Below are positions 1,430 through 10,318 of a stretch of 64,000 nt of DNA, piece after piece. This stretch comes from Propioniciclava sinopodophylli. GTDB lineage: Bacteria; Actinomycetota; Actinomycetes; Propionibacteriales; Propionibacteriaceae. A program made the translations under genes and the position numbers. Every line of letters begins with the position of its first letter. Position 1 is the first letter of the stretch. The DNA lies in contig NZ_SDMQ01000007.1 of NCBI RefSeq assembly GCF_004324755.1, positions 1-64,000 on the forward strand, in the 5' to 3' direction. The notes beneath the pieces are model-generated. The model was not told where the DNA came from and searched no databases. It worked only from the letters and a program-made list of their open reading frames with translations.

Positions 1430-1503
1430 GGACAGACCTCTCTTGCGCTGTGAAACTGGCTTTTGGCCAGCTTAGGCAAGGGGTCTCGCCCGCGCCGGGG
1501 GAT

Positions 1504-1896
1504 TCACTCAGTTGCCTCCACGTCACCCAGGACGGGGTCGGTGCGCACCGCCGTCCACCAACCGACGGCGATGCCGACGATGTCGGCCAGGGCGTCCAGC
1601 CACTCGCCGCCCCGCGTGCCCGACAGGACCGTCGCCTGCACGATCTCGCTGACCGGCACGTGAACCAGCATGGGAACCACGGCCATCCAGGCCTTCGGCA
1701 CGACCTTCACCAGCGCCCACGTGGGCACGGCGAACAGGACGACGTGGGCGAGCTTGTCCAGGCCCGGGAACGACAACGCCCCCGCGTCCGGCGGGCTCGG
1801 GGTGTAGAGGCCCCAGAAGTGCACGCCGAAGGCGAGCACGACCAGGATCCACGGCACCCACGCGCGCGCCTGCGGGTCGCGCGGCTCCCCGATCAC
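1504..1896 (-). CDS. VanZ-like small membrane protein
   Basis: The product is a 130-residue protein with about four hydrophobic segments and the short conserved pattern of VanZ-like proteins ([17 protein letters not shown], then [20 protein letters not shown] near the end). The GTG start at 1896 overlaps the gatB stop by four bases (GTGA), so translation is probably coupled to gatB. VanZ-like proteins are integral membrane proteins, some linked to glycopeptide resistance. In actinobacteria they are often small housekeeping neighbours of unknown function. No specific role can be assigned here. Confidence 0.7.
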
Positions 1897-5362: not shown

Positions 5363-6001
5363 ATGTACCTGCTCCGCGTCGCCCTGCCCGACCGTCCGGG
5401 CTCCCTCGGCGCAGTGGCTTCCGCCCTCGGCGCCGCGCACGCCGACATCAACGCGGTGGAGATCGTCGAGAAGGGAGCCGGGCGCGCCGTCGACGACTTC
5501 ATGCTGACGATCCCCGGCGACGTGCGCCCGGACGCCCTCGTCACGGCCTGCGCACGGGTGCCCGACGTGGAGGTGCTCTGGGTCTCCTTCTATCCTGAGA
5601 ACTGGGGGCTGCACGCCGACCTCGACGTGCTGGACGCCATGGCCGAGCAGCCCGAGCGCGCCGAGGTGCTGCTGACCGACGCCGCCCCCGCGACCTTCCA
5701 CTGCTCCTGGGCGCTGCTGGTCGACCGCGACCACGGGACGGTGCTGCACCGAAGCGCGCTGGCCCCGATCGGGACGCAGGTGCCGCCCGGCGTCTTCGGC
5801 GACCTCGGCACCGCGCACGTGGCCGACCTCCCGGCCGACTGGCACGACGGGTGGGGCGAGGCGGCGATCGCGGTGGCGCCGTGCCGAACCGGGCACAGCA
5901 TCGTGGTCGGACGCCCCGGGCCCGAGTTCCGCAAGGCGGAGCTGGCCCGCCTGCGACACCTGGCCCTGATGGCCAGCGAGCACGAGCCCGCGACTCAGTA
6001 G
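5363..6001 (+). CDS. ACT-domain protein (Rv3013-type)
   Basis: The 212-residue product begins with an ACT domain (MYLLRVALPDRPGSLGAVAS, then ADINAVEIVEKG), the small-ligand, often amino-acid-binding fold. The rest (about 80-212) is a conserved actinobacterial extension with no obvious catalytic motif. The ATG at 5363 was chosen because the ACT fold begins right there. A purine-rich AAGGGGG lies almost against the ATG, too close for an ordinary ribosome site, so a leaderless transcript is possible. In mycobacteria the orthologous position (between gatC and ligA, on the opposite strand) also holds an ACT-domain gene. Its function is unknown; a ligand-sensing role is inferred. The last 7 bp overlap the convergent neighbour. 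Confidence 0.8.
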   Translation: MYLLRVALPDRPGSLGAVASALGAAHADINAVEIVEKGAGRAVDDFMLTIPGDVRPDALVTACARVPDVEVLWVSFYPENWGLHADLDVLDAMAEQPERAEVLLTDAAPATFHCSWALLVDRDHGTVLHRSALAPIGTQVPPGVFGDLGTAHVADLPADWHDGWGEAAIAVAPCRTGHSIVVGRPGPEFRKAELARLRHLALMASEHEPATQ

Positions 6002-6201
6002 CCGCGCAGCATCCGGTAGGCGACATAGCCGAATGCGACGACGGCCACGAGGGCGATCGTAGCGACGGTGATCGTCCACCACCGCTGGTTGCGCTTGGCC
6101 CTCGTGGACGGAACGTCCGCAGGAGCCCACTCGCCCACGCGCGGCTTCACGCGCGGTGATGCGGCCCCGTTCAGGTCCAGGTCGGTGTTCAGTCCCTCCA
6201 C
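5995..6201 (-). CDS. small single-pass membrane protein, function unknown
   Basis: From a GTG at 6201 this frame encodes 68 residues: a polar N-terminus of about 45 residues, a basic patch (TRAKRNQRWW), one hydrophobic helix (TITVATIALVAVVAFGYVAY) and a short MLRGY end. That is a tail-anchored topology with the N-terminus in the cytoplasm. The frame stays open far upstream (to 7323), but that part is a shadow of ligA and the intergenic region, so I begin at the GTG. I do not recognise a family. It overlaps the end of the ACT-domain gene by 7 bp on the other strand. Confidence 0.55.
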   Translation of the reverse strand: MEGLNTDLDLNGAASPRVKPRVGEWAPADVPSTRAKRNQRWWTITVATIALVAVVAFGYVAYRMLRGY

Positions 6202-6277
6202 GGGCCCCAGCGTACGCGTCTCACGATGCGGCGCACCGAGGTGCGCGGGCGGTGTGGTTCCCCGTAGGGTTGCGCCC

Positions 6278-6355
6278 ATGGCCACGACCGCACGCACCCA
6301 CGCGCTGCCGTCGTTCACCGTGCCCGCGGGCTGTTGTCCGTGTTGTCGCGCCTGA
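6278..6355 (+). CDS. cysteine-rich leader peptide (putative attenuator uORF)
   Basis: A 25-codon ORF starts with ATG at 6278 and ends AGCCPCCRA-stop. The four cysteine codons are all TGT, although the surrounding GC-rich genes almost always use TGC. An AGGG lies about 8 bases upstream of the ATG. The ORF is followed by a hairpin containing its stop codon and, 75 bases further on, by a NIL-domain gene. Cysteine-rich upstream ORFs that control downstream translation by ribosome stalling when cysteine is short are known in mycobacteria. A similar role is inferred here. Its small size makes a chance ORF possible, but the clustered rare codons and hairpin argue against that. Confidence 0.5.
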   Translation: MATTARTHALPSFTVPAGCCPCCRA

Positions 6356-6383
6356 CTCCCTGACGCCGTCGTGCTCGGGAGTC
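6354..6383 (+). promoter_or_regulatory. hairpin embedding the leader-peptide stop codon
   Basis: GACTCCC (6354-6360) is perfectly complementary to GGGAGTC (6377-6383), leaving a 16-base loop. The last two bases of the TGA stop of the leader ORF form the base of the stem. A ribosome paused on the preceding cysteine codons, or terminating at this stop, would change whether the stem can form. No T-run follows, so translational control is more likely than transcription termination. This is inference from geometry only. Confidence 0.45.
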
Positions 6384-6430
6384 TCGCACCGCAACCTCCC
6401 GACGATACGCACAGCCCCTGGAGACCAGCC

Positions 6431-6661
6431 ATGACCCTCGACCTCATCTTCGTCGGCGCCGATTCCGGTCGCGCCACCCTCGCCCAGCTCGCCGCCGAGC
6501 TCGGCATCACCGTCCGCACCCTGGCCGACCGGGTGACGACGATGGAGATCTTCCCCGTGCACGTCGTCACCGTCCAGGTGGACGCCGACGCCCCCGGCCA
6601 GGACGCCGCCGCGTCGTGGTTCGCGCGCCGCGGCATCCACCGTCTGCCCGCCGCCGCGTGA
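6431..6661 (+). CDS. stand-alone NIL-domain protein
   Basis: The 76-residue product reads LDLIFVGADSGRATLAQLAA, then ELGITVRTLADRVTTME and a C-terminal WFARRGIHRLP. This matches the NIL-domain pattern (F-x-G, then R/A-ELG-V-x-V-x-IL, then a final L-x-x-x-GV segment). The same domain forms the regulatory tail of the methionine transporter ATPase MetN and occurs next to sulfur-metabolism genes. It is thought to bind methionine or cysteine. The ATG at 6431 has a GGAG 9 bases upstream. It is preceded by a cysteine-rich leader ORF, which supports a role in sulfur amino-acid sensing. The family call is from pattern matching by eye. Confidence 0.6.
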   Translation: MTLDLIFVGADSGRATLAQLAAELGITVRTLADRVTTMEIFPVHVVTVQVDADAPGQDAAASWFARRGIHRLPAAA

Positions 6662-6673
6662 GCCCCGGCGGCC

Positions 6674-6697
6674 GGGCAGGCCAGTACGGCCTTGCCC
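6674..6697. terminator. convergent terminator hairpin between the NIL gene and ligA
   Basis: GGGCAGGCC (6674-6682) pairs with GGCCTTGCCC (6688-6697) with one bulged T, around a short AGTAC loop. It lies between two convergent genes and could serve both strands. Confidence 0.45.
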
Positions 6698-6797
6698 CCG
6701 CCCGCAGACTGAACCGACGGACACAGCCTCCTCTTCCTCGGCTTCGCCGCGGCCATACCTCGCCCTGCTCGTGAGGGGCTCCAGGATCGCAACGACC

Positions 6798-10318
<3,521 letters not shown>

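Follow-up and report, generated by a model that had tools for sequence, protein, structure and literature searches.

Upstream of a gene for a small NIL-like protein, in a 64-kb stretch of Propioniciclava sinopodophylli DNA (the window), lies a short open reading frame (uORF) whose last codons include a cluster of cysteines. This leader is real, conserved and of a known kind, and it stands before a target gene for which no description was found. Judged by sequence comparison, the window leader is probably cysteine-responsive, and the NIL-like gene appears to be a new target for a poly-Cys leader. Ribosome-read cysteine control would thereby be extended to a further target and to another actinobacterial family, with a testable RNA logic in which the Cys codons can also serve as one arm of the masking helix. 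The arrangement also offers a way into the function of a small, uncharacterised protein family, as a cysteine leader accompanies the gene in 16 of 16 genomes. Features of the window unit are collected in Table 1.

Table 1. Features of the uORF-NIL unit, numbered by window position.
Feature	Position	Strand	Basis or remark
TAGGGT, candidate -10 element of a leaderless promoter	6265..6270	+	Ends 7 nt before the uORF ATG
uORF MATTARTHALPSFTVPAGCCPCCRA, 25 codons	6278..6355	+	Poly-Cys uORF in 16/16 loci; predicted leaderless sensor ORF
Cys-Cys-Pro-Cys-Cys, TGT TGT CCG TGT TGT	6332..6346	+	Predicted stall site
Arm A, overlaps the Cys codons	6328..6348	+	MFE fold of this leader
Arm B of the stop-codon hairpin, GACTCCC	6354..6360	+	Can pair with 6377-6383
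Arm C of the stop-codon hairpin, GGGAGTC	6377..6383	+	Can pair with 6354-6360 (7 bp)
Arm D, able to pair with the Cys codons (A:D) or in part with C (C:D)	6395..6417	+	Ends 2 nt before GGAG
Shine-Dalgarno-like GGAG of the NIL-like gene	6420..6423	+	Sequence read
76-aa free-standing, diverged NIL-type protein	6431..6661	+	Pfam NIL in relatives; aligns lengthwise with MetN C-terminal domains

The polycysteine uORF and its conservation

A preliminary description of this DNA had pointed to a 25-codon uORF with four TGT cysteine codons near its end and to a 76-residue ORF downstream, and both were confirmed from the sequence with computed coordinates. The uORF tail reads Gly-Cys-Cys-Pro-Cys-Cys-Arg-Ala, all four Cys being TGT, and 75 nt separate its TGA stop (6353-6355) from the ATG of the 76-aa ORF. 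The same description had called TGT a rare codon in this GC-rich window, which is borne out by 9 TGT versus 125 TGC among the Cys codons of 41 window genes called with a simple GC3 rule. TGTTGTNNNTGTTGT is present at one place in the 64 kb and in none of 100 shuffles. When the window was scanned for leaders (TAnnnT 5-8 nt before ATG or GTG, 8-50 codons, at least three Cys within 7 residues), a single site was returned, as compared with a mean of 0.07 and a maximum of 1 in 60 dinucleotide shuffles. The region 5900-6800 has no Rfam match with E ≤ 5, and the uORF itself has no match in Pfam at E ≤ 1 or in NCBIfam at E ≤ 10.

Relatives were collected by several searches. A protein search located the NIL-like gene in 11 of 96 related genomes, the genome of the window included. 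With a profile search of 198 family genomes, 17 genomes were matched and 16 kept, spanning 4 of 29 genera; within the window's genus, 9 of 13 genomes carry the gene. The corresponding 16 loci are L001-L011, L048 and L050-L053, among which L005 and L048 are nearly identical. Two rows of that search were dropped for having no free-standing homologue, namely G234, a weak 25-residue match, and the MetN row of G183, whose other match was kept. Scanning genome contigs yielded nine loci, in Propioniciclava soli, other Propioniciclava, Propionibacterium sp. or Propionibacteriaceae. A sample of 394 genomes of the class, with 14 candidates scored per genome, contained no free-standing homologue; 10 further genomes of the 394 gave weak matches, which by eye were MetN, frames of Lrp type or unrelated ones.

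In each of the 16 kept loci, a poly-Cys uORF lies 63-98 nt upstream of the NIL-like gene. These uORFs encode 23-36 residues, variable apart from three to five clustered Cys near the stop that mostly form GCCPCC or GCCRCC, and their Cys codons are 60 TGT versus 6 TGC. Several have in common an N-terminal TTA block (MATTAR, MLTTAR, MITTAL, VITTAH). A uORF tail of the form R-[MLP]-R-G-A-[HRL]-[SL] occurs in L005, L007, L008, L009, L048, L050, L051 and L053, accompanied by a predicted GC-rich hairpin after the Cys codons; this combination is absent from the window and from L002-L004 and L006.

A TAnnnT hexamer ends 6-7 nt before the uORF start codon in 16 of 16 loci; the script used admitted a start codon only if such a hexamer lay 4-10 nt ahead of it, and every one landed at 6-7. 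TAnnnT at such a spacing from the start codon fits a leaderless promoter as known from mycobacteria. A sigma-70 consensus scan, on the other hand, found no promoter at the window leader. The spacing suggests a leaderless transcript, in which the mRNA of the uORF-NIL unit would begin at the uORF ATG. Overall, the uORF, its Cys codons, the promoter-like spacing and the RNA pairing potential considered below are all kept in relatives, so that the lack of conservation which the preliminary description named as a refutation does not apply.

The genes ligA and gatCAB neighbour the unit in the window and also in five relatives, their arrangement not being the same throughout. Neighbours at other loci, identified by eye, include CobO, ribose or other ABC transporters, era and others; for L048 and L050-L053, flanks of about 1.5 kb per side were read. 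Within the flanks covered, the NIL-like gene has no constant partner other than the uORF. An ACT-domain protein (5363-6001, plus strand; Pfam ACT, 30 bits) adjoins the NIL-like gene in the window and lies near it in five relatives.

RNA pairing and the predicted effect of a ribosome

The 7-bp stem over the stop codon, noted in the preliminary description, is present, but two other helices are possible as well, and in a longer one the Cys codons can pair with the region preceding the Shine-Dalgarno sequence. This A:D pairing would consist of a 10-bp helix with two G-U pairs between 6339-6348 (CGTGTTGTCG, spanning Cys codons 3 and 4) and 6400-6409, and a 7-bp helix between 6328-6334 and 6411-6417. 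In the C:D alternative, CGGGAG (6376-6381) can pair with CTCCCG (6396-6401), giving a short, long-looped stem that lacks a U-run. Arm D further contains a CUCC able to pair with GGAG.

Minimum free energy folds of relatives keep A:D with other bases, for example GTGCTG/CAGCAC in L052, and the fold of L053 has a GGCTCT/AGAGCC pairing that overlaps the Shine-Dalgarno site. The A:D pairing probability of the window leader was reached by 5 of 200 shuffles. Across the family, it was reached by at most 10 of 200 shuffles in just 7 of 16 loci, and L007, L008, L010, L011, L050 and L051 were plainly not above their shuffles (200 each). Swapping A and D arms among 12 loci revealed that own arms pair better (52 of 5,000 permutations as good); the B/C swap gave a weak signal (464 of 5,000), and a C:D figure was dropped because the two stretches overlap. 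RNAalifold, applied to 9 of the 16 leaders, picked A:D and C:D pairs with no covariation bonus (term +0.21; changes on both sides in 2 of 19 pairs).

The consequence of a ribosome on the leader was modelled with a 31-nt mask and expressed as an opening cost, the energy needed to unfold -13 to +13 relative to the NIL-like ATG, a model that includes no kinetics, pseudoknots or proteins. Placing the A site at the first Cys codon (Cys1) lowered the mean opening cost from 11.9 to 8.1 kcal/mol, with a decrease in 14 of 16 loci. Predicted relief was absent in L050 and L052 (+1.9 and +2.2) and small in L011 and L051 (-1.7 and -1.4). The mean Cys1 effect of -3.77 kcal/mol compares with -0.37 (sd 0.42) in leaders shuffled solely from the uORF stop to the start of the gene; none of the 50 shuffled sets was as low, and in 12 of 16 individual loci no more than 2 of 50 shuffles were. 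Sliding the mask along 15 leaders gave the largest mean relief (3.3-3.8) over a stretch that begins 21 nt ahead of Cys1 and runs to 6 nt beyond it, less than 0.7 at 21-27 nt past Cys1, and a second, weaker zone (2.0-2.5) about 60-72 nt past it; the single best position fell outside the Cys codons in 6 of 15 leaders. In 14 of 16 loci, a stalled ribosome left the four Shine-Dalgarno-like bases, taken alone, less accessible, and the mean accessibility of -22 to +3 rose with stalling in just 9 of 16, so that support for the ON direction comes from the total opening cost only.

We consider it likely that the unit is a cysteine-responsive translational attenuator of the type represented by the leaderless poly-Cys sORFs of mycobacteria, with a new target. 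Direct support comes from the conservation, the promoter-like spacing, the pairing potential and the relief predicted when a ribosome occupies the Cys codons, while leaderless transcription, stalling and the direction of the switch are steps that we infer. On a leaderless mRNA beginning at the uORF ATG, ribosomes supplied with plentiful Cys-tRNA would translate the whole uORF and then depart. Arm A, with its Cys codons, would then be free to pair with arm D upstream of the Shine-Dalgarno sequence, with the B:C hairpin nested inside, and this pairing would hinder initiation on the NIL-like gene. If Cys-tRNA were short, a ribosome would stall at the Cys codons and cover arm A, easing the start of the NIL-like gene.

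The uORF might sense cysteine yet exert control through transcription, by intrinsic or Rho-dependent termination in the leader. One study suggests Rho-dependent termination at cys leaders in Mycobacterium and P. acnes (PMC1262725), and competition of C:D with B:C resembles classical attenuators. However, the shape of C:D described above is not that of a terminator with a U-run, 6100-6850 contains no terminator-like site and no hairpin with a U-run, and by the mask and shuffle results the leader is organised around the ribosome-binding site; termination in the leader is in our estimation unlikely. The switch could also operate in the opposite direction, with a ribosome at the uORF stop favouring C:D and freeing the Shine-Dalgarno sequence, such that the gene would be made when cysteine is plentiful. 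The requirement of C:D for an arm C free of B and the lower accessibility of the Shine-Dalgarno-like bases in the stalled state would suit such a reversal, but with the ribosome at the stop the mean opening cost is 10.5 kcal/mol, above that at Cys1, and the Cys1 position is the lower of the two in 13 of 16 loci. We therefore give a reversed switch little credence.

Two further explanations leave the RNA logic aside. The shared TTA block could be taken as a sign that the uORF product is itself functional, as a metal-binding or arrest peptide, but the differing lengths, the variable non-Cys residues and the want of Pfam or NCBIfam matches to the window uORF at the thresholds given make this highly improbable. 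Short ORFs and stems are common in GC-rich DNA, and the uORF and its hairpin could in principle have arisen by chance; conservation in 16 of 16 loci, together with the rarity of leader-scan hits and the absence of the Cys pattern in shuffled windows, reduces that prospect to a negligible one.

A diverged, free-standing NIL-type protein

The NIL pattern attributed earlier to the 76-residue protein is weak in the window protein alone, which scores 16.8 bits (E 0.0063) against Pfam NIL (PF09383), where the curated cut-off is 24. The assignment rests on relatives of the protein that match NIL: 10 of 11 aligned members do so at E ≤ 1 (best E 1.3e-6), with orthologues in G001, G005, G008 and G142 at 25.8-27.5 bits, above the curated cut-off, and four others at 21.4-22.5 bits. 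An HTH AsnC-type identity, slightly favoured over NIL for the window protein itself (E 0.0059), was set aside because HTH_AsnC matches just 3 of the 11 members. The best whole-length matches outside the protein's own family are MetN domains, in an alignment where 3 of 20 MetN rows (L142, L147, L148) are wrongly picked frames. In all 11 aligned members, other residues take the place of the (N/S)-I-L block and the conserved Gly seen in MetN, and 10 of the members have T-x-M-E-[IV]-F in common. A profile search of solved structures returned none at E < 0.02 (OT3 at 0.029, Lrp-type regulators at 0.38, no MetN). On sequence grounds, we read the protein as a diverged NIL-type domain that stands alone and is related to the C-terminal domain of MetN.

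Dependence of the NIL-like gene on MetN is not supported by co-occurrence, because the gene and other NIL matches occur separately: G013, G141 and also G008 (72% complete) have the gene and no other NIL match, and G004, G006 and G011 have a NIL match in a long frame and no NIL-like gene. PAPS reductase does not track the gene, being missing in gene-bearing G007, G012 and G142 and present in gene-less G003.

The unit had initially been read as cysteine-responsive control of a sulfur amino-acid sensor. Comparison supports the control unit; a sensor role is a possibility for a protein that is a diverged domain with its MetN motifs replaced. Its predicted regulation and its kinship suggest that the NIL-like protein is probably a small regulator of sulfur metabolism that would be produced, along with the sulfite-reductase operon and metQNI, when cysteine is limiting. 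A more specific proposal, which we regard as a long shot, is that it acts as a detached regulatory domain, made only at Cys-tRNA shortage, that would bind the NIL domain of MetNI or another sulfur enzyme and lift feedback inhibition. If true, the ribosome's reading of cysteine would be relayed to transport activity.

Other cysteine leaders and comparison with known systems

Two more predicted leaderless Cys leaders were found in the window's genome. VTIWTEPNLVGRAHVDFARVRSSQCCCGC (L128:9756, minus strand, G000:C43; also L132:7459, plus strand) is followed by NIR_SIR, PAPS_reduct and GTPase genes, a sulfite-reductase operon, and MGHIISAANAVWMMPLCCRRMCA precedes metQ, metN and metI. With the NIL-like gene, these operons would form a candidate cysteine-limitation set within one genome, directly testable outside mycobacteria. 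Under relaxed criteria, and with downstream genes identified by eye, a related leader is present in 9 of another 20 NIL-match regions.

The metQNI leader of this genome lies at L129:2254 (plus strand, G000:C9) and belongs to a group of predicted leaderless leaders with both Met and Cys (e.g. MGQIISAANAVMMMPTCCRRMCA). Met/Cys leaders also occur in L133, L134, L136, L138, L139, L141, L142 and L144, with metQNI behind them Pfam-checked in L129 only, and L143 has a Cys-only relative of this leader. The Met/Cys leader is possibly a two-amino-acid sensor of a Met/Cys transporter.

The mask predicts relief at Cys1 in two sulfite-reductase leaders (-3.3 and -2.6). Nine metQ leaders exhibit no mean relief (mean +0.2; L141 alone -2.6), so not every Cys leader here acts via relief of the ribosome-binding site. 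TGC and TGT both occur in the Cys leaders that precede the sulfite-reductase and metQ operons, whereas the uORFs of NIL-like genes strongly prefer TGT, a choice that may reflect pairing with the pre-Shine-Dalgarno sequence.

Pattern searches covered the window's genome and the family. A first own-genome pattern with TGC codons had no matches; the CCxCC pattern had 26, versus 51 for its backwards control, and by eye the window site alone was leader-like. Family-wide, the TGTTGTCSSTGTTGT pattern occurs at 28 places in 26 of 198 genomes, and 12 of these places are NIL-like loci. By eye, 3 of the other 14 distinct loci are leader-like and 11 are not; the three precede cysE, a periplasmic binding protein (both identified by Pfam) and a protein rhodanese-like by eye. 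At L066 (about 1430-1520, plus strand, G027), the CCRCC uORF upstream of the serine acetyltransferase gene has TACGAT 7 nt before an in-frame ATG. The CCPCC uORF of L069, before the periplasmic binding protein, has AGGAG before its ATG and no leaderless-type start. The CCPCC uORF of L078 precedes the rhodanese-like protein, a 69-aa piece of which has no Pfam match.

Among known NIL proteins, the MetN NIL domain resembles the window protein in aligning over its whole length but differs in that the window protein is free-standing and has the (N/S)-I-L block and conserved Gly replaced. A NIL/ferredoxin protein that acts in homocysteine synthesis (PMC5764234) likewise ties a NIL domain to sulfur amino acids; the 76-aa protein, in contrast, has no ferredoxin match.

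On the leader side, the uORFC-8-2 motif upstream of cysS in Rhodobacterales, for which ribosome-mediated attenuation is proposed, shares tandem Cys codons in a uORF, but there UGC dominates and is followed by a U-run consistent with an intrinsic terminator, of which none was found here in 6100-6850 (PMC8632094). Candidate Cys leader peptides of the cys operons of Mycobacterium and Propionibacterium acnes and of Bifidobacterium cbs have runs of Cys codons near the stop, also in actinobacteria and in one case in a propionibacterium. Their target genes are different, and for Mycobacterium the study reports no conserved terminator-capable hairpin, whereas the leader described here can pair with the ribosome-binding region (PMC1262725).

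Searches of the open-licence literature on Cys-rich leader peptides, free-standing NIL proteins and Met/Cys leaders returned, among the matches listed, no description of a NIL gene paired with a Cys leader. Leaderless polycysteine short ORFs of mycobacteria, with a masked downstream ribosome-binding site, were reportedly described by Canestrari et al. in 2020. In three reports, leaderless poly-Cys sORFs are described as acting in M. smegmatis (PMC9031893, PMC13236596, PMC9094748). The predicted leaderless start and the clustered Cys codons of the window uORF correspond to these sORFs, through which ribosome speed sets the downstream gene in mycobacteria. There, a known cysteine-metabolism operon lies behind the sORF; here, in another family and behind other peptides, the position is held by a free-standing NIL-like gene.
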